A program made the position numbers and the translations under genes. From contig OX485805.1 of the NCBI GenBank assembly GCA_950295325.1, positions 51,980,758 through 52,044,757 on the forward strand: a stretch of 64,000 nt of DNA, in the 5' to 3' direction. This document shows, one piece after another, positions 12,614 through 41,516 of the stretch. Each line of letters starts with the position of its first letter. Position 1 is the first letter of the stretch. The DNA comes from Polytrichum commune. Its lineage: Eukaryota; Streptophyta; Polytrichopsida; Polytrichales; Polytrichaceae. A model generated the notes under the pieces. It saw only the letters and a list, made by a program, of their open reading frames with translations. It did not search any database and had not been told where the DNA came from.

Positions 12614-13114
12614 AGGGCCACTTCACACACGAGCCAAGAGCCGTGACCATGAAATTGTGAGAGCCCTAAAGAAAGTGGCCAAAGGCCGTCCCAACACACC
12701 TCCAAAAGCATGCAGTGTGGTCATGGATCCTCGAGTGTAGTGTGAAGCCATATGTGACCGGGCCCTCAACCAAATGCTATTTCAACGAATTTCTATTCAT
12801 GTGGGTCCTCACACATGATATAATAGAATAAATCAACGGTTGTGAGCGTTCGGAGTGCCATGGTCTCCTAGTTATGTGTTAGGCCTACCTCCAAAAACCG
12901 GTTTTTGAAAATAATCCAAGTGACCATGAAACATTATTCATTTGATGCCATGTAGGAAACCATGTGGACTTTACATCCATCTTGCATTCACACTCTCTGT
13001 TGGTCCCTCAAGCGTAGTGTGAAGCAAACTTGGACCGGCTCCACCTTTTCCACCAATGAGAGTGCTTGAAGTGTAATGGTCACGGGCTCTCAGTCTCGTG
13101 TGTGAAGTGGCCCT
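12614..13114 (+). mobile_element. Non-autonomous TIR element, family M1, copy A
   Basis: A 501-bp element with near-perfect 20-bp terminal inverted repeats, AGGGCCACTTCACACACGAG at the left and its complement at the right end. It is one of three copies; copy B has the same orientation and copy C is reversed. The interior is shared, including the block just inside the left repeat (CCAAGAGCC, then GTGACCATGAAATTGTGAG) and the block near the right end (GAGAGTGCTTGAAGTGTAAT). It has no coding capacity, so movement would need a transposase supplied elsewhere. The flanks give no clear target duplication, so the superfamily is unassigned. Confidence 0.85.
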
Positions 13115-15748: not shown

Positions 15749-16241
15749 AGGGCCACTTCACACACGAGCCAAGAGCCACGACCATGAAATCGTGAGAGCC
15801 CAAAGAAAGTTTCCAAAGGCTGTCCCAAGACACCTCCAAAATCATGTAAGTGTGCTCATGGATCCTCAAGTGCATTGTGAAGTCATGTGTGACCGGGCCC
15901 TTAACCAGAATGTCTATTCATGCGGGTCCTCACACATGAACAAATAGAACAAATCAACGGTTCTGAACGTTCAGAGTGCCATGGTCTCCCGGTTTTGTGT
16001 TAGGCCTACCTTCAAGAGGTGGTTTCTGAAAACAGTCCAAGTGACCATGAAATGTGATCCATTTGATGCCATACATGAATCCATTTAGACTTTACATCCA
16101 TCTTGCATTCACATACTTTGTTGGTCCCTCAAGCATAGTGTGAAGCGAACTTGGACTGGTCAACTCCGCCTTCACCACCAATGAGAGTACTTGAAGTGTA
16201 ATGATCACGGGCTCTCAGTCTCCTGTGTGTGAAGTGGCCTT
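15749..16241 (+). mobile_element. Non-autonomous TIR element, family M1, copy B
   Basis: About 493 bp, same orientation as copy A and alignable along its whole length. The left repeat is AGGGCCACTTCACACACGAG; the right one is slightly degraded, with extra TG units and CCTTT in place of CCCT. No target duplication recognised and no coding capacity. Confidence 0.85.
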
Positions 16242-19172
16242 TAGTTAGTATTGGGCCCCATGCAGTGTGCATACATGTGTGTGAACGAACTATTGGAGGC
16301 TTTTTATATTATATTCTGACTTATTTTCAGTGGCAACCCGGGGTCCAACTCACATGTATGTTCACCCATGTAGAGTGAGTATTGTTCATTTTGCAAAGGT
16401 GGCCCATCATAAGTGGGGGGGTTTCCTTCCAAAATTTCCATTAGGGGTGCAAAACCGTAGTATAGAGTCATATTATGTAGCCCCATTAAATTCATGTATG
16501 TTTATTCATGAAGCAGTACTTGTCCTGCCCCCATTCCCCCTTGTCATCCTTCAATGACTTTGTCAACAATCAACCATAAAATGATTTGTGAGCAAATACA
16601 CATAAATGTCCCCTCCAAATACATGGTTATGAAGGACATATGATAAGTATAGTTATAGTCGTCATTTTAAGCAACTAGACGCAATGGAGTACTATATTAT
16701 CTTCACATTTGTTGGGTCTCGTTATTAACGAGAGAGAGAGATGTTTAGCACATTCTAATATGTAGTTTTTACACACCGTAATATATTAATTTTGTAACAT
16801 ATCAAACTGTTAATTATAGATGTGTCCAAAACTAGTCTTAGGCTCAAAATATGTTCAACTCAAGGGAAAATCTACAAGGTTTGGTTTTGGGTAAGGATCA
16901 CAACTAGGCATACTTACTATAAATTTCTCCTAGTGACCACATTGCAGCATTACGACCCAATGCACTGGACTCAATATATGAATGTTGAGGATTCAACACA
17001 ATACATGGGACCTACACAATCATGCTAACGTAGGTAGGTCCCAAACCTACAACTTGGTCTTGTCTCCGTGTTGCGAGCAGTGTGAAATTTTATTTTCCAC
17101 CAAATGACAAGCTAGTGTTTCATATGCTATGGTCCACCCAATCATTGTGGGGGTCACTAGGTCAACCGATCATCTAATTTTTGTGGGGACCAAGATACTT
17201 GAAGAACCCTAACTTAGTAAGAAGAAGAAGAGGAGGAGAAAAACACCACGATGGGAAATCAAATTGGCCAAGTTAACCGATGATCAACGGAAAGTGTCCA
17301 CCTCATAACTAAAGCAGTGACATGTGGACTAACTCCACAACAATTGTCGGTGTTGGCAAACATACGCGGAGTTGTTTAGGGTTTAGGCCATGGGCCCTAA
17401 AACACACAGCGTTTCCTTTGTATGTGTCATGCTGACTTACACATGGTTTGGAAGGAGTACCATGGCACCCTAATGACCAAGTATGTTCCCATGGGCTAGC
17501 CTACCTAACATTAAGAATGTGTGCTTCAAGGTTATCTGTTAATTAACTGCTCATCCGCACACATTATCCATCGTGCTTGAGGGTCCATATGTGAGCCATT
17601 GCGAGTCTTAATCATCTTCCCAAATTGTGGGTGAAACACAAGAGTTGTCTTAAATGGTCATGTCCATCTCTCCTAGATGTTGCGATCGTCTACCTTTGCA
17701 ATGTGGAGATGGTAACTCGTATGATACTACCCTAATAGGATGTCATGTGTGTGTCTTAGGGAGAATATATATACTTTATCATACACCTTAAATGATTGCA
17801 AACACTTGTCCAAACTTCTCACAATGAGAAGTAAAACCACTACTCCATCTCACACTACCATAGTGACTCAAGTCCTTGTCTAATGAAGGTCATGCAAAAA
17901 AGGTTGTAAAAAAATAAAAAATAAAAAAAGCCTCAAACCCTAAGCTCTTGTGAGAAGTCGTCAGAGGTTTTTAACCCCTAAAAGCTTGAGAATTTTAGCT
18001 TGAACCAAAGATGTACAATTAAGTATGAGTTCAAATTTTTTATTGTGTGTTGTCATACAAGGGAAAGTTTTAGAGAGTTTCACTTTAAATCACATCCGCA
18101 AAGTTGAAATATGGATCTTTATCCTTGGTCTCCACCAGATCGTGTTACAAGCATTTTTCCTTCAAAGAATAATTAGAATTCCAAGATGTATCAAACTCAC
18201 TTGATGTTGGATAGGATTGGTTAAACATACGAGTTGTATAATTGGTGAAAAAAAGACAAAAAAATATCAATGTCATTGACATTGTTACTTTTGTAAAATA
18301 GCTAATTTTATAACCAAAAAATTAAGGGTTCCAATCATTTCAAAGGCCATGTCTAAGACTCGCTGTAAACAAATTTTCAATCGAATTGCTCTAGTTGGTG
18401 CAAAACTTTATTATATCAAGGTGAAAGGAAATAAATAAATAATTTCCTTTAGTAATTTATCTTTGAAAAACGGTTGCAACCACGTTTTGGCTTCTTGGGC
18501 ATTTAGGGGATAAGCTACGTGATGAGCTTGGAAGCTCGAACTCATTGGGCTCTTTGGGGGTAGTTTTTTGAGGTGTCCCCTCTACACCCAACAACACTAC
18601 CTTATTCTCTGCACTTTTGACGAGCTTCAATGTAGGTATTTCCATAACCATGAACATTGCAACCTACACAGTTCTCTTTTGCCCCAAAACTCCAAACTAC
18701 TACATTTTTATAGTATTTAAATTCATTCCAATAGATACAAGTATATACAATTCTTTATGTCATGGTATATTTGCCCCGACATACAATAGGGATCATGCTA
18801 ATTAGGTAGGGGGCAGGTGGGGCGGCATCAACCGACCTTCCCGAATACCTTGAGCACATACCTTGTGGTGGTAAACAAAGGCCATGGCTAGACACCCCGC
18901 CTCCCTCCTTGAGCTGGGCCCCTACCACTATTACCAAGGTAAAAGGGTCTAGTAACAAATGACTCTGATAGATGTGTGATTAACTCGTCTAAAATAAGCC
19001 TCAATAGACCAATTCAAAGGTCTTTGGAATTAATTTCTGGGTCAAATCATCTAGAAAAAGAAAACTACACACTCCACTATAATAATTAACTCCATTTTCT
19101 CGTTGGGTACTAGTGGTGGTGGGGATCCAACTCAATGACAGGTGGCTGTCTGGCATTGGCCGTGTAAACAAA
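16242..19172. other. Intergenic spacer, no gene seen
   Basis: AT-rich sequence with scattered homopolymers (for example A-rich tracts near 17908-17930). No coding region, RNA gene or repeat longer than a few tens of bases was recognised by eye. Confidence 0.45.
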
Positions 19173-21670: not shown

Positions 21671-21973
21671 TGATGTGCAAAATTATACTATGGTGATTTT
21701 ATTTCAAAATGCTAGCATCAACGGACCATTGATTCCTTCTTCAAGTCCACATACATTTCATGAGAAAAAAATGCATATTCATAAAGACATTTGAAAGAAT
21801 ATTTATTTCATATATGTGGCCACATATCGAATGTGTGTTTTCATGAAATACCTCGTTATCATGACAAAGAGGTATAGTTTATCACATTATTGAGTTTGTG
21901 ACACCTCGATAATACGTTGATTTTCTCCTTTCCCAAATGTGGCAGATTAGAGAGGTAGGATTGTACACAACCA

Positions 21974-22473
21974 AGGGCCACTTCACACACGAGATTGAGA
22001 GCCCGTGACCATTACACTTCAAGCACTCTCATTGGGGGGAAACGCAAAGCCGGTCCAAGTTCGCTTCACACTACACTTGAGGGATCAACGGAGTATGTGA
22101 ATGCAAGATGGACGTATGGTCTACATGAATCCCTACATGGCATCAAATGGATCATGTTTCATGGTCACTTGGACTATTTTCAAAAACCACCTCTTGGAGG
22201 TAGGCCTAACACAAAACTGGGAGACCATGACACTCTAAATGCTCACAACCGTTGATTATTTTATTATATCATGTGTGAGGACCCGCATGAATAGAAATTC
22301 ATTGAAATAGCATTTGGTTGAGGGCTCGGTCACATAAGACTTCACACTACACTTGAAGATCCGTAACCACACCTCGCAATTTCGGAGGTGTCTTGGAACA
22401 ACATTTGGACACTTTCTTTTGGGCTCTCACAATTTCATGGTCACAGCTCTTGGCTCATGTGTGAAGTGGTCCT
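21974..22473 (-). mobile_element. Non-autonomous TIR element, family M1, copy C
   Basis: A 500-bp element in the opposite orientation to copies A and B. It starts AGGGCCACTTCACACACGAG, followed by the block that lies at the right end of the other copies (CCGTGACCATTACACTTC), and ends with ATGTGTGAAGTGGTCCT. The flanks CAACCA and ATGGG do not reveal a target duplication. No coding capacity. Confidence 0.85.
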
Positions 22474-24478
22474 ATGGGAGGGAAAATGAACCATCTAACA
22501 AGGGTTGGACATGTTTTATTAATAAAAAATGGGCTTAGATGGATTTATTGCACAAAGTGGCAGTTGCAAGAACATAAACAAACCAATGGGGTTGGGACGA
22601 GGACTAAACCATCACAAGGTGCTCACTGGCACAGGGCATGGCTTTTGATCATATGAAGTTATAGCAATGCAACATAGCATTGATTGTTTCTCTTTGGGAA
22701 GAAACATAAAAAGGAAATAAAGAAAAACAGAAAATACGTCAGTTTTTATCTGATGTTATGATGTTATAATCCAAGTTAGTGCTAAATTTGGTTTAAGTTT
22801 TATATGTGTGAGGCTTCTAGTTGCATGACCATACCATTGTTCAATCATGTGGTTCAGTTCCATGATTGTCAGCCCTAAACCCTCACCCTTAATGCGTCCT
22901 AGTCCGGGTGAGAGCCAAGGGCGACATGCACCTAATTCTCCTGGCTTTTCTGACCTCAGTGAGTCAAACCCCCCAAATGCAAGGCCCTCACACATGCTAC
23001 AACTTTCACTTTAAAGATCACAAGGTAATCAGTGTTTAAGAACACTCTAACACCTTGTGATCGGTCAATCCGTGCATTATTCTCATAAATCACCAAGGAA
23101 CACATCAACCAATACACTCACTACTTCCACTCTAATGTTGTCTTATTTATCCTAAGGAAAACACTAATGCTACCACTCAAATCCCCTTTTCTCTAATCTA
23201 CCTACTATATTGGAAGAGGGTGGCATATACCCTAGTAAACATTGCCCTTCTCCTTAGCTACAACCTAATTGCTAAACTTCAATCTCGGAAATGGGCCCGG
23301 AAATCAACGCTGTTCACTGTCAATGTAAGCCCGTCATCCGCCCGTCATGCTCCCGTCAACACCCTTCACTGCGACAGATGGCCCCTTCACGGCAGCCAGT
23401 GACTTGCCTCGAGTTACAGTACCCATACGCTCTCTCCTATGATCCCCTTCACTGCATCCAGTAGCTTGTCACCACTTCAGCCTCATTCAGCCCTCGATTT
23501 CTCCCCTCATTGGCCATTCACCGATCATTCCTCACTCTCTTTCCGAGGCAGAACCCTCCTTCTGCAGCCTAAGCAGCTTCCGAATCCTCACCAGGCTGCC
23601 CAATTCATCCCCCTTCGCCACTCTGCAAGCGCACTGGATTTCTCCGAAATCCACTGACCTGCACTTGAGATTATTACCCAATTAGCTGCTGTCGATTTAC
23701 TCCTTCCCTCCTTCAGTGAAACCTCCTTCTCACCCTTGTGACAATCTCATTCCGAACCCACCTTTAGGCTGCTGGAATCGCCCAATTACATTACCACAGC
23801 ATTGAATTCGATTCACTTCTAAAACCAAGTTAAAATCAGAGTCAGACTTGGCAATCTGTCTCATTGTTTAGCCCCCTTTCTCCTCTTCATTCGAACACAT
23901 CCCTTCCCAGTAGCCATCATAGTCTCAAACCTCCTGTTGAGCTGCAAAAAATGGTTGCTGGATCCCAGCTCCGCCACAAGGAAGAGAGTCGCAACTTCCT
24001 TTCCCAGTAAAACCAACACCGAACCTTCCATTCTCAAGAAAACCCAGCCTCACCTCGGCATTCCTCCCCACTTACAGATCGGTGAAGCCTTCTTGGGCTC
24101 AGCCGCCATCCCTTTATGAGCCCAAAATGAGTGCTCATATTTGTTTTATGTTTAGAATTTAATTAGAATTGCAATTGGAGTGTTACTGAAACAATTAAAA
24201 GTATAAAAAGAGTGAGGAGTGGTGTGGATTTATGTTTAGGCCTTAAGCCTATTTGTGTGGTTAATTAGAAGCTTAGTGACATTACGGAGTGTTTTGATTA
24301 GAGGAGTAGTGCTTGATGAGGCAAGGGGAAGTGCCTTTGATTTAAATGTTTGAATTATAACATGTTCTTGTTGGTTTAGGGGGTGAGGGTTTAGTGGATA
24401 GGATAAGGTCCTACTAAGTAGGAGAAAGCTAAGGAGGTTGTGGTTTGGATGCCCTCCCTCCTTCCTTCCTCCTCTCTC
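22474..24478. other. Spacer with a C/T-rich tract, no gene seen
   Basis: From about 23230 to 24110 the plus strand is rich in C and T and has promoter-like composition, then it switches abruptly to AT-rich DNA at a palindrome (ATGAGCCCAAAATGAGTGCTC at 24117-24137, ending CAT). Short frames at 23439-23657 and 23937-24119 are Pro/Ser-rich by composition and have no recognisable domain. Confidence 0.4.
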
Positions 24479-24960: not shown

Positions 24961-27528
24961 TTCGAGGCAAGTTAGACGGTAGCGGGTTTAGGGGGAGTTT
25001 AGAATGATAGTTAATTATATTTAGTGCCCTAAGTGGAAGAAGATGGGTTTGCTAGGTAATTAGTGATTCATGTAAGTGGTTTGGCAATTGTATGGGAAGT
25101 TGTTAGAGGGTATTAAGAGAGCACTAATAGGAAAAGCGTTTATCAACGCTTGTACTCATGATATGGAATAAATTGGTGTGATCGAAGTTATGTGTGATGC
25201 AATGGGGTGAATGACGGAGGAACAATTAAACTAGGACGAATGTGAATGTGATCACCATGCCCTCACCCATACTAGGACGCTTAAGGGTGGGCGGTTTGGC
25301 CTCACAGAAGGCCAAGCTAAAGTTTTCTAATAGCAAACTTGCAAACATTCTTCCCCCGCCTGCCCCTTGTGAGCCCGAATCCGTGCCCACAATTCAACTT
25401 AAACTTTAAAAATATCAAAACATTAGAGTTAGCAATTATTGAGTTAGTTAAGAGTTAGATTGGATTGGAGTTTAGAATTTAGACCTTTTGTCGTGTTAAG
25501 CTGTTATGCTTGTGTTATTTAGTGAGAAAGATTAAAAATGAGTTAATCAGTTTGATTAGAGTTAGTTAATACCAAGCTCAAGTGGCTTGATGCTAACGGT
25601 GTTGGTCGTTTAGGCTTAAGCCAATGTTCGTTTTAGGAGGGGGGGTCCCCACAATGTGGATTAGCCACTGGATTCTCGGATCCAGGGCAGGGGAGTCTCT
25701 AGAACGCTCGGGAAGGCTCTCTCTCTCTCTCTCTCTCTTTCTCTCGGTGGAGCTCCAGGGGCTGGAGGAAGTGTTGTTGCGCAAAAGGGGGGAAGGATTT
25801 CTGAATCAGTGGCCAACACCGATGAGACAAGGGTACATGCAGTAATGCCAAAGAGTGTTGGTAAGGGTTAACTTGCTCCCTTCATCAACCAGCCCAAGGT
25901 GCAGAATGAGGAACTTGGTGAGTCGGAAAAGGCGGTGAACCGCTGCTGAGGCAGGGGGCGAGAGTGAAGCAACTGAAGGGTTATTAATCGTCCGGGATGC
26001 AACACACAAATCATGAAGGCTCACGAAGAAGGGCCAAGCACACAATCCAGGGAGGATTCCTCAAATTCTTTTACTGTTTAGTGCGGAGGTTGTAAGAAAT
26101 TATGATTTGTGGTTGAGGCTCGGTGAATGTGTAATGATTCTAGCTCTCAGAAAGATAATGCAGGGTGGATTAGGTCAAAGAAAGACCAAGCAGGTCATTT
26201 GTTAACTCAATGCGGGTTGGGCGATTGACCCTCAATGTGATGTTAGATGGGGCAGTCGAATGTGAGCTGCCACAGAGCTTGCCTCGCCCGACTCTCCTGC
26301 CATTTGTCGGAGAGGAAACAAGTGTGCAGAGCAAAGGGAGGGTGATCGTTGAAGGCGCAACATTGGGAATTTTTTTGAACAAGTTAGACTATCGAGCTTG
26401 TATACCGAGCCTTGGAGGCTAGCTGCTTGGGAGGTGAGGCTGTTGGATGTATGCATTCGAACCACCGGGTATCAACGCAACAACCAGGGTGACTACTGGG
26501 GACTAAGAACCAACCGAATTGCCGTGTGGGAATTGAGCCAGCCTTAAGGCAGTGCAAGGGAGGCCACTGTAACAGGGTGCAAGCCGTCACTATGGAGACG
26601 GGGTTAGGGAAGCTGCTAGGTGGCAGTTGCAGCTGGAAATCCAACAAGAAGGACAGAGGGCAGCGGCAGGGGTGACATTCCAGTTACTGAGGCTGGGTTT
26701 AGGGACTACAAAACTAAGCTAGTTGCCGCAAATAAAGATGTAGAGGAACTACGCAAAATTTTTTGTCCAAGATCTATTCAACAAGCTCGATGTTACTGTG
26801 AAAACATGTGAAGAACATGAGAGGTGGACGTGGTCCCGGGTGTTTCACATACTTAAGGAAAGGTTTTTCCCTCATTTCCGTGGATCCCTGTAGGAACACA
26901 TGGAACATGAGTGGTTAGAAATGGAGAGAATTTTATTGTGACAAATACATTCCGAACCACGCTTACTTGAGACTGAATGCCCCCATATTGTGAGATTTTT
27001 GTTGATCTTAGTGAGGACACTAGATGGTCACAACTCTCTTAACCATCTTGAGAGAGGTCTGACATTGAATAACATTTTTGACATTGGTCGAGGTAACAAG
27101 AAATCTGTAGCTTTGAACAATGTTGTGCACAATTTGTTAACTATGGGTTGGCCATTGTTTTCGGGTATTCACACAACATATAATACCTTTAGTAATCTAC
27201 ATTAAGAGATAATAGCATTGTTTGGTTGCGATTTGGATAAGCAAGCTAGAGTCGTGGAGTAGGTTAGGGCCTTCATTGGCAGAATTGCACATTGAGCACT
27301 TGCCGACATGGTATAATGCATCGATCTTCCAAGGTCGTTGATATGAGGTATTCGGCCAACGTCCCAAACCAACAAAGACCTAGATGTCAAGAGGTATGTG
27401 GTTGTCAGATACATTTAATTGTATTTTTAAGTTATAATTCAATGTATAAAGGGCACCCATACATTGTTTGATTGAAATGGTTTTAAGGTTTGTTCATTTG
27501 ACTTCAGTATCTATGTTTTGCAATCGTC
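24961..27528. other. Spacer with possible decayed coding fragments
   Basis: It includes a CT microsatellite at about 25717-25740. From about 26690 onwards short plus-strand frames appear (26620-26811 and 26990-27205). These may be upstream, frame-shifted pieces of the unknown coding remnant at 27529-28367, since their orientation is the same and they lead straight into it. I recognise no domain in them. Confidence 0.4.
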
Positions 27529-28367
27529 ATGCATGAAGACATGAACATTGGATCATCAGCGACTAGCAACCTCCAAAAGAAAAATTGTTGTGTGCAAATG
27601 AGATTGGATGAAATGCTCGATGCCATGCTGACTTTAGTACATACACAAATTAATTTCATTTACTGTGGGCTTAGCTTGGATGAGCCCATAAATAACATCG
27701 CGCCGGACATGCCAAACAAATTATTATTAATGGGCGAGTTCCTAGAATTGCCTCAATACTTCTTGTAACTAAGCCAAAATATTATGTAAAAGCAATGCAA
27801 GATGCAATATGCTTAGACGGTTTTAACAACATCCCAATGGTTTTCCAAAAATATCTTGATGGTATAGAATGTATCAGCACCCTGGATAAACCTTTCCCGC
27901 AGCTCTAGAATGATCTCCAAAAAAACCCTTTGAAGTTTTTTACGTCTTTCACGCCCTTATCTCTTGATGGCATATTATGCACGATGTACTTTGCAAATCC
28001 GTGCATTCCTTCAGAACTACACAATAGGTTAAATGAAGGACCCTGGTTCGCAAAGATTCTGGCAGTGACTCTTGCCATTAGGTCCCCTGGGTCCAAAACA
28101 ACAATTTTACCACCATGCATATTAGAGTTGGACGATATAACGAATATTGGTTATGCACCGGAGAACTTTTTCATATCCAATGACAATATGAGTGTAAAAG
28201 AGGCGGAGGGCATGCAGAATAGCGGTTTAAGAGGCGTCCCATTCAAATCGCTCTTGACCACGTCCCCGTGCTTCATCGTTTCCGAGGTAGTCCAAAGATA
28301 TAAAATAAAATATCAAAAAAATAAAATATTCGTCGAATTTGATGGGGAAGAACAATATTGTAGATGA
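27529..28367 (+). pseudogene. Unknown coding remnant upstream of Ulp1-like segment
   Basis: A run of readable plus-strand protein: a frame at 27529-27768, then, after a shift, a frame from about 27770 to 28367 interrupted by one TAG near 27904. The last 145 codons (27930-28367) are uninterrupted and include MYFANPCIPSEL and ELDDITNIGYAPENFF. Length, composition and consistent direction suggest real but decayed coding sequence. I do not recognise the family. It precedes an Ulp1-like segment on the same strand, so both may derive from one transposon-borne gene. That is inference. Confidence 0.4.
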
Positions 28368-28813
28368 CATTATATCTAGAACAACTCACAAATATAATAG
28401 AAGGTAAATTATTTAGTAAATTAATTTTTGGATACTTCACATTTTATTATTTATTATTTGTTATGTTATTCACCTATATATATAATATTATTAAATGATG
28501 ATCAATCTATATAATTCAAGGCCATCATATTGGAGTTCATTATGCATATGTATTTTGTAGGTTAGAAGAATTAGTAAACACGATTATGAAGGATGCAAGT
28601 GGGACAACGTTTCTCTCATTTAAATTTACATACAATGTAATATTTTTTATATTAGATTGAAGATATAACATTAATTCACTGACAAAGATATACGGGGAGG
28701 TGTTGAACTTCATAATGAAGTTGATAAGGATATGGTTGAATGTCGAGTTCAAAAATATGAAATATTATTTGTAGAGTTCATATATTCTTCTGATCTTAAA
28801 AGGGTTTGTTGAG

Positions 28814-29239
28814 TTGCACCCCACTAAGAACCTAAAGGTTTTCATAGAAATTGCGCATGAAAAAAATTATGCGTTACCAGAGTTAGACATCACAACTTTA
28901 ATAGTAGCATATATATGTGGAAAACATTGGAATGTCTACATTGTAAGGGATCAAGATTTCTTTCACTTTAATTTCATGTCAATTTTTGGACTATATTCTG
29001 ATACCACCATCCACACACATTTGACAAAGATGTTGGCCATACGGAGAAGATATACACAGAGGTCGTTCAAGTTGCAGAATGCACTGTCGCTGAATTATTA
29101 GATTTAACCAACTGTGTTCCAACAAAATTATAGACGGGCTTGTAGATTTTACGTTGTAAAAAACATAATGGAGTTCATAAGAACATTGAGGCATAAACCC
29201 AATACATTGCGTGAGGTTAGTAGTGATCTCACGCATTGA
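28814..29239 (+). pseudogene. Ulp1/C48-type cysteine protease-like remnant
   Basis: Ulp1-family (C48) proteases cut SUMO-like modifiers and use a His-Asp-Gln-Cys catalytic set. Related domains are widely carried by plant MULE and CACTA transposons. Here GKHWNVYIVRDQDFFHFN gives the expected His-Trp, although the usual catalytic Asp is Asn (HFN). In the same frame, after two stops (TAG at 29099 and TAA at 29105), VFQQNYRRACRFYVV supplies the Gln and the Cys with Ulp1-like spacing, followed by KNIMEFIRTLRH. The stops and the Asp-to-Asn change show it is inactive. The call rests on motif pattern only. It is convergent with the MULE/SWIM remnant at 29887-31045. Confidence 0.5.
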
Positions 29240-29886
29240 ACAACCTCAACTAAATAACAATTATTGTAGAACTCTAAAAAAATATATCATTGTTATTTGT
29301 AAATTTTAGTATATTAATGTAACACCTCTTGCATATTGTTCTTCATTTTCTAGGGTTTTATGTTTTACTACAAAAAAATGAGATCATATCCGGCAATGCA
29401 CGGTCATAAGCGACGCTATGATTGATGTCGTAAAAGTTGGAATGTGGAAGGGCTCGGATTTTATTATCATTTAATATTTTAGTGATGTGGTGATTATAAC
29501 ATTCTATCATTGAATTAGGATGGTATTCAAATGTTCAATTATTCATAATTGTGATGTCATTTGTAATTGTGATGATACTAATCTCAGGTCCTCTAAGGAT
29601 TCACATCATGGTCATGTGGTTATTTAATTATTTTGGCACTTAGTCATTTGGTCCTCTACTTTCGTTAATAAACTATATAATCATGTACAACATGATGTTA
29701 TCGTCATGTGCAATGGAACACTATATGGTTTTTAATCGGATATTAAAAAAATACCAATAAAGACATTTATGTAAAGAACATGAATGACAACGTGAAGGAC
29801 ATAGTGACCAATACAGGTTCAGAGTATGTTGAAGAACTTTATGATTAAATATGAAATATGTTGCGAATTTGAATAAACATGTGGAT
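29240..29886. other. Spacer between convergent remnants
   Basis: AT-rich DNA between the end of the Ulp1-like remnant (plus) and the end of the MULE/SWIM remnant (minus). No gene or RNA recognised. Confidence 0.45.
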
Positions 29887-31045
29887 TCAATATAAATATT
29901 CTACATAAGTAACAATGTAATAACATACATATAGAAATGATATAAATATAAAAACATATGTCTGTGAATGACATAAATGCTTAAGTGTAAGTTTTTTTAG
30001 AAAAAATGACTCGAAAAAGCTTCGATGGCGCTTGAAAAAATTGTCACCCCCTTTATCTGGAAACAATGATGTGATAGGTGTAGCATGCAACATAAGGACA
30101 CCACGTGCAATGAGTTCCTTCTGCTTACCTTTGATGTGTTTCAAATCAACAAGCAAGTAAAGATGAAGTACAGGGTAATCTTTTGTATTTCTTGCCAATG
30201 ATGTATATACATTGTGAATCGTTGTTTGTGATGCACCCTGGGAGACTTCAATTGTATTGGAAACATCGCCCAAAGATATATGAAACCCTATATGATTAAA
30301 ATGTATGGAATTGAGATGGCCATATCCACCCACGTCACCAATGGTTTCAAGTGTAGATCCACAATTTCATGCGATTCATTATCATTCATTACACTGGCGG
30401 ATAGTCTGAGATGTTCATTGCATCGTCGCGCATGTGCATGCGTGGAATAACATTGGGACATGGGAGTGACATGATCAACACCATGTAGTGTGCCAACCTC
30501 TCTAACTACGAAATTGTCTTCGATGTCGGGGTGGAGCATCTTGAGCACCATTACCATATGCTTGCATATTATGCCCTCACGTGCGATGTGACAGTCGCAT
30601 TGTGCCCACTCAGAGTCATGTGACTGTATCGTCCATACCTTATAATTGTTATACATTGAGCCAACATATACCTTGCCCTCATCCATGCAAATCAAAACAT
30701 TTATATCAAGGATTGTTGATGCACGTATAATTGCAAAATAAACAATGTCCTCGCATTTTTTGTTCCTCACAAATCCAAAAGCCTTGCATTGGACTCCGTA
30801 CTAGTAATGTATGAGCACATCCCCAGTGAGATGATAGATTAGTCAATTCATGCGTCTTCCAATTAATCATTTTTTTTTTGTTGAATTGAGGATGTTTTTG
30901 AGGTTCGAGTGATACGACTCAATGGCAACATTTGTGTTTTGTCCAACATGAGGTATCTTCCTCGCCCCCATGTATTGTGCAACCTTGTCTGACCTCCACT
31001 ATTGCTCACAACAGTGACCACCACGCACCCACTGCACCCTGAGGC
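29887..31045 (-). pseudogene. MULE-type transposase remnant with SWIM zinc finger
   Basis: Read on the minus strand from about 31045: GARKIPHVGQNTNVAIESYH, then SNLKNIL, the region ahead of the SWIM finger in MULE/FAR1-type proteins. Next come KVWTIQSHDSEWAQCDC and ICKHMVMVLKMLHPDIED. Cys-x-Cys followed by Cys-x-His is a complete SWIM signature, a zinc-binding DNA or protein contact module. A C-terminal tail follows (30333-29887, VSQGASQTTIHNVYTSLARN and LFPDKGGDNFFKRHRSF). Breaks: a TAG near 31018, a shift after a run of A around 30870, another near 30780, and one near 30300-30333. The N-terminal MULE catalytic domain is not visible, so this is the C-terminal half only. It could instead be a domesticated SWIM-protein pseudogene. 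Confidence 0.65.
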
Positions 31046-32639
31046 AGAGGGTTACCCATGCATTTACTACGAATTTTTGTCCTTAGATGTTTGACTTCCC
31101 CTCCCTCCCTCAAGTACCCTTGCACTCTAGTGAGGCAGCATCAATCAACACAACCTAATGTAGAAATCAACCCAACTCTTTCATTCACAACCAGGAGGTT
31201 GGGTGCAACTTAGCTCATAGAGAGTGCGGCGGCCCATGTGTTCGTTACACTATGCATGTGCATGCACGCCCCCATCATGATGAACTGGAGTGGCCTCCTC
31301 GATCTCATTGGGAACCACTAGATTTCTTAGCAATTTCTTTAGTGCGACTGCCCACTGAACGAATGAGTCCAAAGTCTGAAAGTTTTGCTTGCTACCCCCC
31401 ACTTGCAACCAACTTCTTCCTCACCTTCCTTTTTTGTTTTATTCTTGACCATCCTTCGCAGAACCCCTTCTCAATCCGCCACGTCCTCCGTCCACTACTA
31501 AGCCAAAGGCAACCACTCACAAAGTTTCATTCCATCCCCTTCTTGAGAACACATGGTATCACAATGGGGCTTCCAACGGCAACCTCACCAACTTCCGCAA
31601 ACTCTTTTATGCCTTTTACCCCCCACACACCAATGTTCCCTGCATAAGATCCAACTTTCTTCCCAAACCAAAACGTGGCAATGCTCAATCCCTAGACTCG
31701 CCCTGACACTCCATTTTCTCACAAAATCTCCAATCCTAAACTATTGCTCACAACATGCCCCATAGCTCACTGACCATGATCCTCTAATTTCTTGCTCTTG
31801 CAATTCCTAAGTGCCCCCGCTTGAATTCCGTTGCTTTGTTACCCAAATTGGTCACAAGGGATGGAAGAGAAATGCCTTGTCGTTTCCCACCATCCTATTC
31901 AACTCACAACCTAACTTCCAACGGTCCTCCTAGGCCCTTACAGCAAATACACCGAGGACGTCCCCCCCCTTCTTGTTTCCCAAGATTTCTACACTTCCAC
32001 CTACCTGCCTAATATCTATTCTCACATTGAACCCTCTTCTTACTGCCTGGAAATGCAACCTCTAGTCCTATACGCTAAATATGCTAGCAGAGTGGACCAG
32101 GTTAGTTGTCACAAATGAGAGAGGAAATTGCCCACAGCAGCACCGCTTTGGCCTACTCCCCTCGCTCTCCCTCTCCCTCCTCAACTCTTGTGCCTTTTTC
32201 TACCACTACTCCCCTCTCTAGCTTCGATCCCACCCATTGCCACAACAACATTGCTATTGCCTCCAATCCACGCCGCAACAGAGCTTCCGCAACCTCCCTC
32301 TCTCCACCTCTACCCATGCCTAATGAACCCCTCTTCCCCAAGCTCTCATGACCCCTCCAACTTTTTACTTTTTTTTCGCGTTGCCCGGCATCTTTGCGGC
32401 AGCCCGAAAAAAAACGAATTACCACTTGACTCTTTCTCCTTATCCTTCTCCCCTTTGTCTTTTCGACTTAACTTACCTTAGCTTCACTTAGCTTTGGTTC
32501 CTATTGTTTTTATTTGTAATATTAGGCATTACTTAAGTCCTTAAATTGCTTCCAACCCATCATTAAGTTTGTTTTTTTTAATAAATTACACATGTGAGCG
32601 CCATCTTGGGCTCACAATATTACACTCACTTATGCCCCT
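31046..32639. other. C/T-rich spacer, possible upstream region
   Basis: The plus strand is strongly C/T-rich between about 31250 and 32560. Open frames at 31252-31647 and 32106-32481 are Pro/Ser/Leu-rich because of this composition and show no domain. It may be the 5' flank of the methyltransferase-like remnant downstream. A short palindrome, GTGAGCGCCATCTTGGGCTC with a final AC, lies at 32595-32616. Confidence 0.35.
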
Positions 32640-34298
32640 TCAGGAAGTTGTCATTATTCCTAACCTTACCTCTTCCTCCACTCCTTCACAACATACCTCC
32701 CAAACTCTAGGTGATTGTACATGTATTCATAAGGTTGTTGATTTGTTTGGAAAATACATCCATTGCCGATATGTTGGAGAATGGCACAAGTGAAAACCCT
32801 ATTTTGGTATCTACCTTTGAGTTTGTCAAGCATGTAAGCTAGCCTCTATGAAAATGTCAAATTTTCATATTTCTTTTCATTTCTTGTCACATATGATAGT
32901 TTTGTGGTTTAACTTCATTCAACCTAATTGTTGTAGGTTGGAGGTGGTCGTAAGACTTCAATTTCTTTATAGCATTGCCCATTTGGAGGTTTTGACCTAA
33001 TTATTGTGGCTTTGCTTGAAAATCTTCATGTTTTAGGTGTTGCCTCTCTCCTATTGACCATTTATGTGTGGAATTATCACAATCTAGAGGAAGTGGAGGC
33101 CTTGTTCAAATTTGCATATGGTTTTCTCACCGACAATGCACCATTCTTGCTATTCTTGCTAGAATCCAAGATAGTTAGCGATGTCGTTAGAACATGGTGT
33201 CCTATGGGTTCAACATGGCTAGGGATTGGTGGGGAATCAATGAGCTTCCATTGTGCTTGCTTGTCAATCCTAAACTCACGGTAAGGTGTTCCCTAACATT
33301 AATTAATTTCTTCAATCATATCTTTCAACGGCGTGGACAAAGTTGCATATGTTTTGGTATCAACCTCATCATTTGTGTGGTTCACTCATGGTATAATTGT
33401 TTCTAGACTTGGCAGTTTTGAATGATGTGTTCTTCCATTCATGCATGTGTCAAACTTTTACGTTAGCAAAGCATGTTCATTTTCTGTGGTAAATGTGGAC
33501 TTTGTCGATGGGTTTTTCAGTCATACTTCTAAAAACACAACTCATGCATTAACTCCACGATACACCATCGAGAGGTGGGTGTGAAAAGGATCCTAGAGCA
33601 ATGCAATACTTGATTGAAACATTGACCAAACTGGGGGCAATGGTACTTGATGCTTATGCATCAACATGTGAATACATATCTATTACATGTTAGTTGGAAA
33701 TTCAATTTCTTTAGACTAGTTGCATGTGAAGATAGGAATTGAGCATTGTAAACTATTTGAAGTGTTTCAATCTATAACATGTGCTACAATACATGCATGC
33801 TGACGTAATGGCCATCATCTAGTGGCATTCATAAAAGGAAAACTTATGTTCAACTCCGAGTTGGCACCGTTGCAAGATGAATCACTAGCACTTGTTGTTG
33901 GTAGCTCTCAGTCACCAATGAAACTTGCTTATGATGACAACAAACCCTTTATGAAAGTGGTTCCAAAATCTTCATTGGGTGCGTAAGTAAGTTTGTTTTT
34001 CTTTTTGCTTTCTTGTTTTGATATGTTGATATCCTTTGCCTCATTTTACAATATATTAGAAGTTGATATTTTTTTTATGAAGGAAATGAATGCAAATCTC
34101 TCCTCCCAACCCAATGGGACTTCCCATTTATGTGGAGGATGTTGCTCAACTATGGTTGAGACCGCTACACCACCCATTTTATTGTTTGTGAATGTTGAGG
34201 CGGAAGGATGCGATGACCATCTTGGTGATAATGAGGATGAGAGCATATTGGAAGACAACCTGGGTAGTTGTAGTGCCTCTCCACGTGGATCTGCTTAG
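32640..34298 (+). pseudogene. Spliced DNA-methyltransferase-like pseudogene
   Basis: Coding-like segments follow each other on the plus strand with credible splice sites. Segment 1 starts about 32711 after CTCTAG and ends at the donor CAT|GTAAGC (32833/32834). A 103-nt intron ends TTGTAG at 32936. Segment 2 holds PFGGFDLIIV (32977-33006) and later ARDWWGINELPLCLLVNPKL, ending at donor ACG|GTAAGG (33281). A later segment has ALTPRYTIER and, at about 33600-33660, YLIETLTKLGAMVLDAY. The last segments are about 33847-33985 and 34081-34298, ending TAG. The order GFDLIIV, then a YLIE...GAMVLD block resembles N4-cytosine/N6-adenine DNA methyltransferases with motif IV before motif I, but neither a DPPY box nor the FxGxG loop is intact. 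At least three frameshifts and an in-frame TAG (about 32969) make it a pseudogene. The family call is inference; splicing and coding character are better supported. Confidence 0.42.
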
Positions 34299-34492
34299 AT
34301 CAAGGACAATGAGGGGCATTTAAGTAGTTCACAAAAGAACCCACCTTGTGCTTGCTTGGATAGGATGGTGTTGCGACTTAGTGTGATTTGGAATTGGCAT
34401 TCTATATGCATGCAAGTGTATTTCATACTTGCACTAATAATACAAAAACTTTGAGCCCAATCTTTCGCAATTTGTTCATCAATACATTATTT

Positions 34493-34821
34493 TATTGGAA
34501 GTCAATAAGACTAGAGATGAGATTGCACAAACATACACACATACACAAAGGCATATGAACAGCTTGGAGTGAGATGGTCTCATGCTCTCCTTGCTTTGCC
34601 TTTTATTGTTTTTTTTGTTTTTTTTAACATTCCTTAGGTCATACAAACAATATGGGATAACTCTTATCCCTCTCGGATAAGCATTGTTGCCTTATTCTAA
34701 CCTTATTGTCTGTCATGCCTCTTCCATTAGATTTCTATTGACCATGAACAATCTAATGCTCTACGTTCTACAATTCCCTCTAGGATTACATTTCTACGAC
34801 TACGAGCAATCTAATGCTCCA
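34493..34821 (-). repeat. Copia 3' LTR
   Basis: 329 bp; on the plus strand it runs from TATTGGAAGTCAATAAGAC to AATCTAATGCTCCA. It aligns throughout with 39719-40039, including the shared blocks CTCTCCTTGCTTTGCCTTTT, CAATATGGGATAACTCTTAT and CCTTATTCTAACCTTATTGT. Substitutions and small indels separate the two LTRs, so the insertion is not very recent. Confidence 0.93.
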
Positions 34822-34828
34822 CCTTCAA

Positions 34829-34841
34829 TACTCCCACTTTA
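34829..34841 (-). other. Copia polypurine tract
   Basis: The minus strand reads AAAGTGGGAG about ten bases before the 3' LTR begins (TGGAGCATTAG). AAGTGGGAG is the typical plus-strand primer site of plant copia elements and confirms that the element is on the minus strand. Confidence 0.75.
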
Positions 34842-34999
34842 CAAGTAGTCAAAGACTTGTAATGCCATTAAGTTTCTTATTTTTTCAACCAAATATAATG
34901 AGGTTCTAACATTGCCCATAAGTTTTCACGTATTATGCTTAGTTGCTTCATTCCAATTCAAATGGGCTTCAAATATTGCCACATTGGACATTGTTCAAC

Positions 35000-37900
35000 A
35001 CGTTGAGGCAAAATGTGGTTCTCCTACCATTCTTCAAGCGGTCGTTGCTCTCTTGTGGGGTATTGTCGCTCCTCGCCATATCCCTCATCAATAACGTTGT
35101 TGTTTGTTGGTTCTTCACGTGCCTCTTCAATTGCAACTCCATTACCTCTCACTTGCTCATTGTCGTCCACGGATTGTCCACTACCATCAAACAAAGGCAA
35201 TTTGAAAGATTCATCCACTACCTCCACTGTAGGGCCTTCATTTCTCCCACTTGGACGTATGTCCAAATCGTTTATAATGCTCCCACTATCTTCTAGAAAC
35301 ACAACATTTTTATTTTTATATGATTTATTTTGTTTCCAAATACATCAGCCTATACTCGGGGAGTTCACTAGACATATATATATGTATACACGTGCGTGAC
35401 AAGGGTATTTATTCAAGGGGTATTTAATTATCCATCCTTAATTTTTTGTACCGTATTATTATATAATTATATAATTTATTGTTTTTTAAATGACCCTATA
35501 ATTACTTTTAAATTTTATGAAGCTCTAATTTTAAGCCAGGTATGTTCATTATAAATATTTGATTTTGCTCCAAAGGGTTTAAGAGTATTCAAAGTACCAA
35601 GTCACCAAAATCCAAGGCACAACAAGGTTTTACATTAAAAGTGTTCATAAACAGTTTCAAACAACAAAATTAGCCCATGTTTCTCAATCAAGTTACACGC
35701 ACAATTAAACACAATGGTACTGAGTGTAAAAAAAACAATTAAAACACCAACAACAAAGCAAGCAAAAATAAGATCCATGCAATAATGTAGAAGGGTATAG
35801 AGTTATTACTACAACATCTTGCTTGAAGCAGACAGACACAAGACCAACCAAAACTCCTCTAATTTATCTTGAGAAATTGTTTCTAGTTTTTAAAATCCTA
35901 GCAAAACTGTTCATAGCAAATGAAAGATGTCATGTTCATCTTGCAAAACAATTCCTAGCTTTTAAGAACACTAGTATATAACCAACAAATAATGCATGCC
36001 TTTAATCCTAAACACAGGAATCCGTCATCCGCCCTCATCAATCTTTCATCCCATTTTTTCAACTGAATCGACGTAGTTTTTCATCCAAAATCTTTCCACC
36101 TCTTAACACAAAGGACACCCTATTTCAAAAAACCTAGGATCCTTAAATCCTACGGTATATTTTTAAAAATATTTTAAAAATATGCGTTATTTGTATCAAG
36201 CCTATATTATTTATAATACAAAGTTTATCATACATACTCACCTATATTACTTCTAAGAAAATTCTAAGTTTTTCCTTTTGTGAATATAAATTACCCTATA
36301 TTTTCCCGCACGTTGTTTTCTAATATTATATCAGTGAACTCCCCAAGAGCCTATATGCCTTCATTTCTTTGCAATATCCAAAAAACACACATTTGATTCC
36401 TTTCGCATCAAGCTTGCCCCTCCTCTCGTCCGGAACCATTGCATATGCAATGATTTTTGCTACACACATGTGTGCAATTCAAGGCTTTTTCCCACTCTCC
36501 AATTCTTCAGGTGTAACGGAGGACAAGGCCTTGGTTGGACATCAGGTTAGGGTATAAATCGCATTTTCCACCGCTTTCGTCCAAAACAATTTCTTGGGCT
36601 TTAGAGCTCCAAGCATATTCTTTGTCATTATGACAATGGTCCGATTTGCAAACTCCACTCGTCTAATAACTTGAGGCGTGCCCTCAATGCCGTATGCCAT
36701 CTTTCGAAATGGAATCCCCTCTGCTTATCTACCGAAACTCCGTGATTTCATGCTCCGATTGCATTTCTACAAATGCTTGGAACTCCTTAAACCTCTCAAA
36801 CTACTTTCTTTTGGATTTCATGATGTAAATTCGCACCTTCCTCAAAAAATCATTAATGAAAGTAACAAAATATTGCCCCTCTCACATATGTGTTCTTCAT
36901 TGGGCCACAAACACCCGAATGCACAATCTCCATGGGTTTTTGTTGTTTGCCCCTCCATATCATTGCCCAACTTTACCACATATTGCTTACATTTTGTGCA
37001 TACTTCGCAAACAAAAGTAGCGGTGGGACAACATGATTTACCTAGGTTTATGCCCACCACCATGCTCTAGAGTGCATAAATGCTCCTCAGTGTCCTCACA
37101 TTCAAAAGTATGGGTCGGCAGTGCCAAAGCTCTATCATACGGCCTCCTGCATGTGAATGCACGAAATTGGCCACATCCACTTCACATATCTCCATGAAGG
37201 TCATTTGATATAAAATACCTTTATGTTGAGCTATTGCAACCACGTCGCCATTCACACCTTTCACAGTACATTTGTTTATATGAAATCGCATATTCAACCC
37301 GTTTGACAAAAGTATGCTCAATGAGAGCAAGTTGGCTTGTAACTTGAATACATGAAGCACAATGATAAACCTTATTCTGATAGCTTTGGCCACCCTATCA
37401 TCACCCAAACCCACATTGCATGAATACGGCCCTATGCAAAGTCATATGTTTTGCGGTTCCCAAATTCATGATCCATTTGCAAACATTCTTCAAATACACT
37501 TCATATTGCATTACAAATGCAAATCCGTCATGTCCTTTGTATTTTTGGCATTCTCCCTCTCCTTGTTATTTGCTTTCTAGCAAAATCATGCAATGTGGTC
37601 CAATTCAGCTCAATTGTATTATGCCCTTACGCCTTGCCATGAAGTTGGATCACCCATGTTTCTTTAATACAACACCATTGCCGTGTCTTCGCCTTGAGGT
37701 TCATTCTCCTTGCGCTTCAATATCTCGTGCATCAAACATGTCACTACGTATTCTATCATCAACTTCTTCATCGGCATCCTCTTAAAAACGGTGATCAAGT
37801 ATTGGTACAACGATGGTAAGCTCTCAAACAAAGTCATGACGATGTTTTCCTCTCATATATGTACCTCCAAACACGCAAACTGATCTGCAAGCACTTTAAC

Positions 37901-38260
37901 CTTGTTGACATGGTCCAATACGTCACCGCCCTCTTGCATCTTGCATGTGAAGAATTTGCGACGAACGAAGAGGATGTTAGATAAACTCCTCGTCTCGTAG
38001 ATGTTGCAAGGGGTCTTTCACGCATCTACTAGACCTTTGCAACTCTTGATGTGCACAAGTTGGTTTTCTGCCAAGTTGAGGCCAATGATGCACATAGCCT
38101 TCTTGACACATCTTTGATACTCATTCAACACTTTGGGATTTGTGTTGGAAGGTGAAGTATTTTTGGATCCGTTTATAATATCCCAAAAGTCCATAGATGC
38201 CAAAATTATCTCCATTTTGAACTTCCAAAGGTTAAAATTCTCTCTCTGATACTTGTCCAT
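35000..38260 (-). pseudogene. Copia gag-pol, frame-shifted and lacking RT
   Basis: Gag starts with ATG at 38260 and shows FNLWKFKMEIILASMDFWDI, then NQLVHIKSCKG. After a stop and shift comes the YETRSLSNILFVRRKFFTC region. Protease follows: WIMNLGTAKHM near 37478-37440, where the expected DSGA active site has become NLGT. The GAG-pre-integrase region has ELWHCR and LNVRTL (near 37130-37080) and CEVCTKCKQ (near 37010). Integrase C-terminal residues [19 protein letters not shown] read cleanly at 36455-36395. The frame is then cut by the nested element after AYRL and resumes at YRLMYLETK (35350 downwards), with a 92-codon open stretch at 35302-35024 ending in ERQYPTREQRPLEEW. Reverse transcriptase and RNase H are absent. 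Confidence 0.88.
35355..36347. mobile_element. Nested TIR element, 993 bp, 8-bp target duplication
   Basis: It is bounded by inverted ends, CTCGGGGAGTTCACT at the left and CTTGGGGAGTTCACT read inward from the right, and flanked by a perfect 8-bp duplication AGCCTATA (35347-35354 and 36348-36355). Removing the element and one duplication copy restores the copia pol reading ...AYRL/MYLETK, which independently proves the insertion. An 8-bp duplication fits hAT-type elements, though the termini are not the usual CAG/TAG. The interior is AT-rich with no coding capacity. Confidence 0.93.
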
Positions 38261-38329
38261 GACTCTAGCCCTTTTGCTCTACACATATGTCATCTTATCT
38301 TCAAAGAATACCTTTGTAGGCTCACAAGT

Positions 38330-39540
38330 TCCAAATCAAATTCTCTTCACCTCAAAAAAATCTTATGACACTCAAATCACTTAAATAAGATGTCCTTCAC
38401 CCCAAATATGCCTTATACTCTCAAAAACCTTAAGTTAGATCTTCTATACCTCAAGAGAAGTCTTAAGACACTCAAATCATTCAAACAAGATTTTTTTACC
38501 TCAAATGTGCCTTACACTCTCAAATACATCAAGTTAGATCCTCTACACCTCAAAGTAAGTGTTAAGACACGAAATTATTTAATTAACATCATCTTCACTT
38601 CAAATAATTAGTTCATGCTTCAAATGTTCTTTCCAACACTCTAGTTACTAGCACACTCGAATATACTCTTCTTGAGCTTCTACTAGTCTATATTTCAAGG
38701 TAGCTTTTAAATATTCAAATAACCAAGTCAAATCAGTTTAACTCCAAATGAACCCTCTTACCTTCAAACTTTGTGGTTTCACTCCAATCATTCAAATAAG
38801 GTTCATTTTTACTAGAAAATGCTCTTGTGGTATCAAATGGGTTTTTGGACTCTCAAATCACTCAAGTCAAATCTAATTCACAATAAATAAGAGCTTTTGC
38901 TCTCATATATGCCCTAGAATTATCAAATCACTCAAGTAAGATCTTCTTCACCTCAAATGAAACCACTTCCTCTCCAAAGTGCCTAAAGACATTCTAATCA
39001 CTCAAGACAAATCTCTCATATCTCAAATGAGTTCACTTGCTCTCAAATGTGTGTTAGGACTTTTAATCACTCAAGTTAGATTTTGTTTCACTCAAATGAA
39101 TGCATTTTTTCTCAAATGTGTCAATTGCACTCTCCAATCACTCAAGTTAGATGCTCTTGATCTCAAATCACGTTTAATGCACTTACATAAGCTTTTCCAC
39201 ACTCAAGGTACTCACACAACACTTCCTTCAACTCAAAACACCTTGAATGGATTCAAACAAGATTTTCAACACTCAAGCCTTAAATAAGCCATTAAACACT
39301 CAAAGCACTTAGGTTATATGTTTTTGAAGTCTACATTCCTCCAAACCTCTCAAATAAGCTTTTCAACATTCAAGCCTTTCAAGTCATGTACTCTTGGAGT
39401 CTAAATACCTTCAAAGCTCTTAAATAAGCCCTTAAATGCTTAAGACACTTCAATCAAATGTTTTTGAAGTCTAAACACCTCCAAACCTCTCAAATAAGCT
39501 TCTCAACACTCAAGACACTCAAGTCACATGCTCTTGCAAC
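38330..39540 (-). repeat. Degenerate tandem repeats in the copia leader
   Basis: About 1.2 kb of repeats between the primer-binding site and gag. The plus-strand core resembles CTCAARTYAGATCTTCT, then CACCTCAAATG. Near 38361-38570 the pattern repeats at 100 bp with 50-bp half units (TCTTATGACA at 38361, TCTTAAGACA at 38461, GTTAAGACAC at 38561). Near 38931-39141 the period is about 70 bp (CTCAAG at 38931, 39001, 39071, 39141). Open plus-strand frames here are by-products of the repeat. Confidence 0.85.
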
Positions 39541-39557
39541 AAACATACATTCAAACC

Positions 39558-39585
39558 AAAAAAAAAAAAAAAAAAAAAAAAAAAA
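39558..39585 (+). repeat. 28-A homopolymer
   Basis: An uninterrupted run of A on the plus strand (T in element orientation) within the copia leader, next to the tandem-repeat region. Too long to be confident of its exact length. Confidence 0.9.
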
Positions 39586-39704
39586 CACTTACAACAACCA
39601 AATGCACCATCGGACACCTTCAATGCTTCAAAGCTCCAAAGCGCCAAGCCCTCAAGATTCACTCCGCAACCTCAAAGCAATCAATATGCACTTCACTTGG
39701 ATGC

Positions 39705-39718
39705 GTGGGCCCATAACC
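39705..39718 (-). other. Copia primer-binding site, half initiator tRNA-Met
   Basis: Element-sense GGTTATGGGCCCAC directly follows the 5' LTR. Its complement, GTGGGCCCATAACC, matches 14 nt of the anticodon arm of plant initiator tRNA-Met (anticodon CAU inside CCCATAACC) rather than the usual 3' acceptor end (TGGTATCAGAG). Drosophila copia and yeast Ty5 are known to prime from a cleaved initiator tRNA-Met in this way. Confidence 0.8.
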
Positions 39719-40039
39719 TATTGGAAGTCAATAAGACTAGAGATGAGATTGCACAAGCATATACACATACATGAAGGCATATGAACAATGCTTGGAGTCA
39801 AATGGTCTCACGCTCTCCTTGCTTTGCCTTTTATTGTTTTTCTTCTTTTTCTTGGTTTACACAAACAATATGGGATAACTCTTATCCCTCTTGGACAAGT
39901 GTTGTGGCCTTATTCTAACCTTATTGTCTCTCATGCCTCTTTCTTTACATTTCTATTGACTATGAACAATCTAATGCTCTACCTTCTACAATTCCCTCTA
40001 GTACTACATTTATATAACTACAAGCAATCTAATGCTCCA
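39719..40039 (-). repeat. Copia 5' LTR
   Basis: 321 bp matching 34493-34821. On the plus strand it begins TATTGGAAGTCAATAAGAC directly beside the primer-binding site and ends AATCTAATGCTCCA. Confidence 0.93.
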
Positions 40040-41516
40040 CCTTTAGCATATTCACACCTACTTAAACTCTTGAAACATAGTATGTAGCATATTTGCTACA
40101 TGGAATGTGCTAGCATTGTGGTAAACGGATTTTTCATATTAAACTTTAAACCCTAAACCCTCCTAATCAACTTTCATTTGTTGTTTTGGGGATGACAAAG
40201 GCATTTATTATGTACAAATTTCATTTTATTATGTATTCCCTAATACCATGGTTAGAGGATACTAGTGCACTAGTGGGCTTATTCCCACATATGTTTTCAC
40301 CATCACCATTCACAAATTCTTGCTCATCGCTCATTACTCATTGCTCACCACTCAAACGATAGCACTCCCTGATTTGAAAGGTGGTGTAATCTTTAAGCAA
40401 TACCTAGTCTTGATCTACCCATCCTAAATATTAGTAGCTATGTAGTTGCCATGTTATGGCCTTGAGATCTACATTTCTATCTCTAACTTCATGCAACCCT
40501 AGTTAGACGCTTTTTTTTACTACCATGTCACACAACTTAATCATTGTAATATACACACAACCATAATGATCCCATAAGATGGTATGGTAGTCCTAAGCAT
40601 CAACCATAATTGCAAAAATGCTACTAATAAGAAAATGCCTTAGATATCATTTCATCACACATATACTACACATGCAACTCAAAACGTCTTTCAAGGATAT
40701 TGATCCTCTGTCACAATCATCCTCAACATATGCATCAACTAAGAGCTAAGAGATTAGTTGCATTACATGGAGCAAGAACAAAAAATAGTAAGCAAAAATG
40801 AGCTAGAGCTCGAAAGTCCTTAGCCTATACTTATGGAGTAAAACCCTTAACCTAAACTAACCCTAGCTCTAAATGGAAGTTACTGCAGTAACTCAAATAA
40901 TATTTTATTCTAGTCCTAGTTGTATTGGGCCTTCTTATCGACCCGTTCTTTCATATTGTTTTTTTTATTTTATTAACCTGGAGTACCTAGTTTGTTGCAA
41001 TAGTGGTAGCTACTATCACTATTGGATTTTCCTTACCAAGTCGTATTCTCCCTTGGGGATCTAGGGATTCCCCCAGTAATAATATTGCCCATACAGTACT
41101 TTGTAATTACCGGTACGGCCTCCCTACTAGCATTGCCTCGTTGCTCTCTATCCTACCCCAATAAGTTTAGATGACGTTAGCTTACGATTACCTTATTGGT
41201 TGTTGGTATCATCCATTAATTACAGTACAAATACAGTGACAATCATAAACAATTTAAGGGTTATTCTAATGTGATTAATGTCTCCTAAACTTCCCTAGTA
41301 GGGTCATGTGTTATTGGTATTTCACTCTTAGTCATCCTTGTTTGTATCATAATTGATTTGTACATTCTCCACTAGTGAACTCTATTTGCTTTCGTCTTTA
41401 CTACCATTCTCATTCCCTTAAGAACCAAATCAAAAGCAACAATACATGTACCTCTTCTCTTGCACTCAAGGTCCATCCTTTTATCAAGGTTCTACCTCCC
41501 TATAGTTGAGCGAATG
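40040..41516. other. Intergenic spacer, no gene seen
   Basis: AT-rich sequence. A short telomere-like stretch (TTAAACCCTAAACCC) lies near 40144 but is not an array. No gene recognised. Confidence 0.45.

Follow-up and report, generated by a model that had tools for sequence, protein, structure and literature searches.

The closest bacterial counterparts of the locus described here are the beta-class DNA methylases of the YhdJ type, represented by the curated model NF010253, which we take to belong to the N6_N4_Mtase family (PF01555). Bacterial-type amino-methyltransferases have been reported in few eukaryotes, with Marchantia as the one plant case in the parts of the reports at hand (PMC8885841, PMC8566409). 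According to the available portions of these reports, bdelloid rotifers captured a bacterial permuted N6_N4_MTase, termed N4CMT, which is said there to have no eukaryotic homologs (PMC8885841), and Marchantia sperm contains N4-methylcytosine together with the enzymes MpDN4MT1a/b (PMC8566409). In a literature search at the level of titles and listings, nothing beyond these two reports was judged relevant to such a plant gene or to a plant transposon carrying one. A fossil in another plant genome would suggest a wider former spread and indicate living copies that merit a test for N4C or N6A marks, although a relic alone proves neither. The kind of gene is already known and the copy presented here is dead; what counts is whether intact paralogues exist.

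Similar to the YhdJ-type methylases, the relic contains a joined motif X and motif I (X-I) block, showing 42–62% identity over 21–35 residues to plasmid methylases among the matches listed. It differs from them by a degenerate glycine loop, the lack of a DPPY or SPPY box, frameshifts, stops and probable introns, and no significant match was obtained outside the block. Compared by description, bdelloid N4CMT resembles the relic as interpreted here in being an intron-containing eukaryotic gene for a permuted amino-methyltransferase of bacterial type, whereas the available part of the report presents it as functional and fused to a chromodomain (PMC8885841). The Marchantia enzymes, again compared by description, share with the relic that they are amino-methyltransferases resident in a seed-free plant; unlike the relic, they are described in the part at hand as functional and sperm-specific (PMC8566409).

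We conclude that the segment is probably a pseudogene of a nuclear gene, presumably of a plant and likely intron-bearing, with a beta-class (permuted) N6-adenine/N4-cytosine DNA methyltransferase domain. The intact ancestor would have carried a (D/S)PP(Y/F/W) catalytic box in its N-terminal half, and its X-I block, the surviving part, would have bound AdoMet. The ancestral enzyme may have methylated adenine or cytosine at the amino group, with DNA as the presumed substrate. The present copy would yield no enzyme. A preliminary description had read this segment as the relic of a prokaryote-type DNA methyltransferase-like gene with introns. The cofactor block and the broken frame of that reading are borne out by the data below, while its catalytic half is suggestive and its introns are putative.

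The locus was analyzed within a window of 64,000 nt, meaning the whole stretch of DNA under study. All of its features are located on the + strand:

32632–32833 (+): putative exon(s) upstream, divided between two frames, read from the sequence and ending ...ENGTSENPILVSTFEFVKH before the intron
32834–32936 (+): putative GT-AG intron of 103 nt, in phase 0 at either end, proposed from the splice-site letters
32973–33187 (+): candidate catalytic half, HCPFGGFDLIIVALLENLHV..., from a collinear profile alignment, with a motif rank at chance level
33191–33280 (+): possible continuation of the catalytic half in another frame, NMVSYGFNMARDWWGINELPLCLLVNPKLT; weak, its first part being the end of the profile alignment
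33577–33663 (+): motif X and motif I block of a beta-class amino-methyltransferase, GCEKDPRAMQYLIETLTKLGAMVLDAYAS, from profiles, shuffles and library matches
33720–33983 (+): coding-like stretch downstream, LHVKIGIEHCKLFEVFQSITC... to ...KVVPKSSLGA, interrupted by an in-frame stop at 33801–33803
34083–34298 (+): possible acidic C-terminal tail, EMNANLSSQPNG...GSCSASPRGSA, followed by a stop; an ORF without a Pfam match

The letters named in the preliminary description for 32640–34298, that is GFDLIIV, YLIETLTKLGAMVLDAY, the 103-nt GT-AG stretch and the GT at 33281, were all found in place. GFDLIIV (F at 32991) shares the frame of position 32940; YLIETLTKLGAMVLDAY (Y at 33607) follows after 616 bp on the + strand and is read in another frame. 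Since a frame change is needed between the two motifs, the segment is no intact gene, irrespective of where it came from. The coding-like stretches as a whole lie in differing frames and thus require frameshifts or undetected introns. The stretch 32834–32936 begins with GTAAGC, finishes with TTGTAG and links ...FEFVKH to VGGGRKTSISL in phase 0, and a donor-like GTAAGG is present at 33281. Introns at these two sites may have joined the coding-like segments, as had been proposed. The argument for the introns is the splice-site letters. The joined frame then runs into a TAG at 32970–32972. ORF length alone is no evidence for a gene, since ORFs of about 100 codons are frequent in the window (45 stop-to-stop ORFs of at least 100 codons).

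The main evidence comes from the cofactor-binding part. The ungapped 29-column X-I block at 33577–33663 (+) ranks first among 127,828 positions on both strands of the window, with 24.6, 15.9 and 23.0 bits in the profiles built from all, generic and viral sequences compared to 6.1, 7.4 and 8.1 for the runner-up. In all four profiles, the fourth being genomic with a block score of 17.3, none of 200 dinucleotide shuffles of the whole window was as good. The best shuffles reached 17.8 (all), 15.5 (generic), 19.3 (viral) and 13.7 (genomic), and Gumbel statistics gave p values for the block of 0.0001, 0.008, 0.0004 and 0.003 in the same order. A six-frame HMMER search with filters off, using a profile of 162 beta-class methyltransferases, returned 33553–33690 (+) as top match (14.0 bits, E 0.0025, profile positions 196–219), followed by a lysine-rich low-complexity ORF with E 0.071. 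The block was also on top in all three sub-profiles, with E values of 0.0057 (83 viral sequences), 0.094 (76 genomic) and 1.1 (58 generic genomic). In hhalign, P values of 1.3e-5 for the X-I piece and 1.9e-4 for the joined translation were obtained, and 0 of 200 shuffled peptides were as good. At the level of the whole block, the X-I (AdoMet-binding) region of a beta-class N6A/N4C DNA methyltransferase is present.

This finding supports the cofactor-binding motif claimed earlier at YLIETLTKLGAMVLDAY. Of profile searches of the hmmsearch and HHpred type, proposed as a check in the preliminary description, HMMER and hhalign with the profiles built here point to this block (values given above), and Pfam gave no match for the relic pieces at E up to 10. 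The same description had held that a lack of methyltransferase matches at any significance would speak against it; such matches were obtained, those from the libraries being individually weak.

The composition of the profiles has to be considered in reading these values. From 166 sequences (163 further methyltransferase loci and 3 from plasmids and phage), 165 matched the first profile and the 162 of suitable length were used. The loci L001–L003 had been picked for their likeness to the peptide and served as the starting point for collecting the wider sets, which introduces a bias. The least biased models are the 58-sequence generic profile and the curated NCBIfam model, and these give weaker figures (E 1.1 and E 0.031). 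With the generic profile the block scores 15.9, barely more than the top shuffle among 200 (15.5).

The picture is less clear for the catalytic half. As motif IV, GFDLIIV ranks 129, 336 and 186 of 127,930 positions in three profiles. Chance would give about 1 to 2.5 scores of this height in the 961 positions searched upstream of the X-I block, so that GFDLIIV alone is at chance level. A joined piece of 106 residues aligns collinearly over profile columns 20–90 (71 columns, P 0.029, probability 1.7%). In this alignment FDLII is located under the strand before DPPY and IVALLEN is read at the position of the box. As good an alignment was found for 4 of 200 shuffles. Among the 98 stop-to-stop ORFs of 80–135 codons in the window three score as high, one of them being the relic's own ORF without frame change. 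This 103-aa upstream ORF reaches a slightly higher score than the joined piece (19.7 vs 18.7) in the wrong part of the profile. With plasmid tblastn at E up to 10, no methyltransferase was found for the upstream (catalytic) or the downstream pieces. A single-sequence fold of 32973–33187 (71 residues) was predicted as two helices with a mean pLDDT of 66.4 and a pTM of 0.42. This helical low-confidence model does not correspond to a Rossmann half and gives no support to a catalytic half; with one sequence as input it counts little. Downstream, IGIEHC resembles motif II (IGIE); its ranks of 449 and 225, in the two profiles that allowed a placement, are not significant. The FDLII region is, overall, only suggestive of a catalytic half. 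From the catalytic-before-cofactor order put forward in the preliminary description, the cofactor part is retained and the catalytic part at GFDLIIV is suggested by the alignment.

The decay of the copy is evident. Motif I reads VLDAYASTCE, in which VLD is retained and the G-S-G loop (D.F.GSGT) is lost, and a DPPY or SPPY box is absent from the relic. This is in accordance with the earlier statement that neither catalytic box is intact. An intact reading frame was not found, as the segments lie in differing frames and are interrupted by the TAG at 32970–32972 and by more stops. Due to the frameshifts, the stops and the lack of both the DPPY/SPPY box and the glycine loop, the copy cannot work as an enzyme. 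The observed/expected ratio of CpG is 0.33 in 32631–34298, compared to 0.50 for the window as a whole and 0.89 for an AP2 gene in it; TpG/CpA is raised to 1.45 in the relic (1.28 in the window, 1.23 in the AP2 gene). CpG depletion together with raised TpG/CpA fits long-methylated, unselected, decaying DNA.

The CpG depletion would also suit a gene of a transposable element, in which case the element would have spread the methyltransferase as an accessory gene before it was silenced and decayed. We regard such an origin, which is compatible with the pseudogene reading, as possible but on the unlikely side. The surroundings are rich in repeats. Direct repeats of about 335 bp at 34493–34825 and 39719–40043 (+) are 87% identical and 5.2 kb apart, both downstream of the relic, and may represent either a dispersed repeat present twice or the two termini of a single element. 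An ORF with a SWIM-type zinc finger is found 1.8 kb upstream at 30288–30800 (−), its match being weak (E 0.0024, 17.8 bits, Pfam cut-off 19.6). SWIM fingers are frequent in plant Mutator-like elements, and the ORF is possibly a transposase remnant. It is, however, encoded on the opposite strand, its membership in the same unit as the relic is putative, and it has no relatives in the viral contigs. Further points against a mobile unit are the absence of inverted repeats of at least 25 nt in 26000–41000 and the chance-like nature of the 15 shorter inverted pairs in 26000–36500. A T-rich direct pair at 32551–32588 and 40938–40975 (38 nt) does flank the relic, but is only 71% identical, and the window holds no second copy of the relic. 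The more far-reaching idea, that the host has or had an intron-bearing beta-class amino-methyltransferase family spread by mobile elements and independent of bdelloid N4CMT and Marchantia DN4MT, is decidedly doubtful. If it were true, intact members could modify plant DNA with non-canonical N4C or N6A marks.

The pseudogene reading is likewise compatible with kinship to the N4-cytosine methyltransferases (DN4MT) of Marchantia sperm, of which the relic would be a degenerate paralogue. Two sperm-specific N4C enzymes are described in the available part of that report (PMC8566409), and the X-I block of the relic is of the same amino-methyltransferase kind. The relic lacks, however, the catalytic box by which N4C and N6A types are told apart, and we consider this particular descent unlikely.

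That a random stretch of 29 codons merely resembles motif X-I appears rather improbable. In favor of chance, one block alone is significant and the remainder of the gene is unsupported or weak; in addition, the finding was picked by eye from a large sequence, which implies some selection. Against it stand the whole-window shuffles described above, as well as the agreement of separate libraries (NCBIfam, PHROGs, phages, plasmids) on the family, which the reversed control does not share. These libraries were queried with a 35-residue piece around YLIETLTK. The sole NCBIfam match was NF010253, a DNA methyltransferase, with E 0.031 at profile positions 151–175 of 226, which is the expected place; with 13.9 bits it stayed below the cut-off of 244, and Pfam gave no match. 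The sole PHROGs match was also a methyltransferase (E 0.29), and the single match in the phage search was a DNA methylase. With plasmid tblastn (72,556 records) 199 records were matched, and all 60 among the matches listed carry the annotation DNA methylase, methyltransferase or YhdJ, with E values from 1 to 9. Because 166 of the 199 records are from Enterobacter, the rows are not independent; other genera among the matches listed are Serratia, Pantoea, Klebsiella, Citrobacter, Leclercia, Salmonella and Pontibacillus. The reversed peptide gave one match in the same plasmid search, without annotation. In the PDB no match was obtained for the joined conceptual translation, and scans of viral contigs with the 103-aa ORF, the downstream 60 aa and the L001 plasmid methylase revealed no relatives.

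A different Rossmann methyltransferase such as an MT-A70/METTL4-like RNA or DNA m6A enzyme is highly improbable: METTL4-like enzymes have the same permuted order with a DPPW box, as far as the available part of the report goes (PMC8885841), but neither an MT-A70 model nor any other Pfam model matched the five relic pieces at E up to 10, and it is bacterial DNA methylases that match the K-P..L..LI...T..G..VLD block.

Two further candidates were tried and rejected. The string EKDPRAM is not a diagnostic mark; 11 viral-contig matches to EKDP(R/S)AM (9 EKDPRAM, 2 EKDPSAM) included no methyltransferase by profile (best E 0.5). A frame-jumping chain alignment reached 40.6 bits at the locus, but 44.0 (+) and 40.7 (−) elsewhere in the window, and was therefore dropped as evidence.

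Several other features were observed in the window. An ORF at 567–1094 (−) contains HMDEKWFY and presumably resembles a mariner-like transposase, where Pfam gave no transposase. Another ORF at 28775–29101 (+) with GKHWNVYIVRDQDFFHF has no Pfam match and looks, in our assumption, like the remnant of an Ulp1-type protease. A repeat of about 500 bp occurs in three copies (12609–13118, 15744–16245 and 21969–22474) that are 82–88% identical, one being inverted. At 38322–39555 a degenerate tandem array with spacings of about 50 nt and 70 nt consists of a TCAAATCACTCAAGT-like unit. The longest ORF listed in the window (3832–4986, −, 385 codons) encodes an AP2 domain (PF00847, E 3e-9) and hints at a plant as host. 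With this ORF and several repeat families, the window looks like land-plant nuclear sequence.
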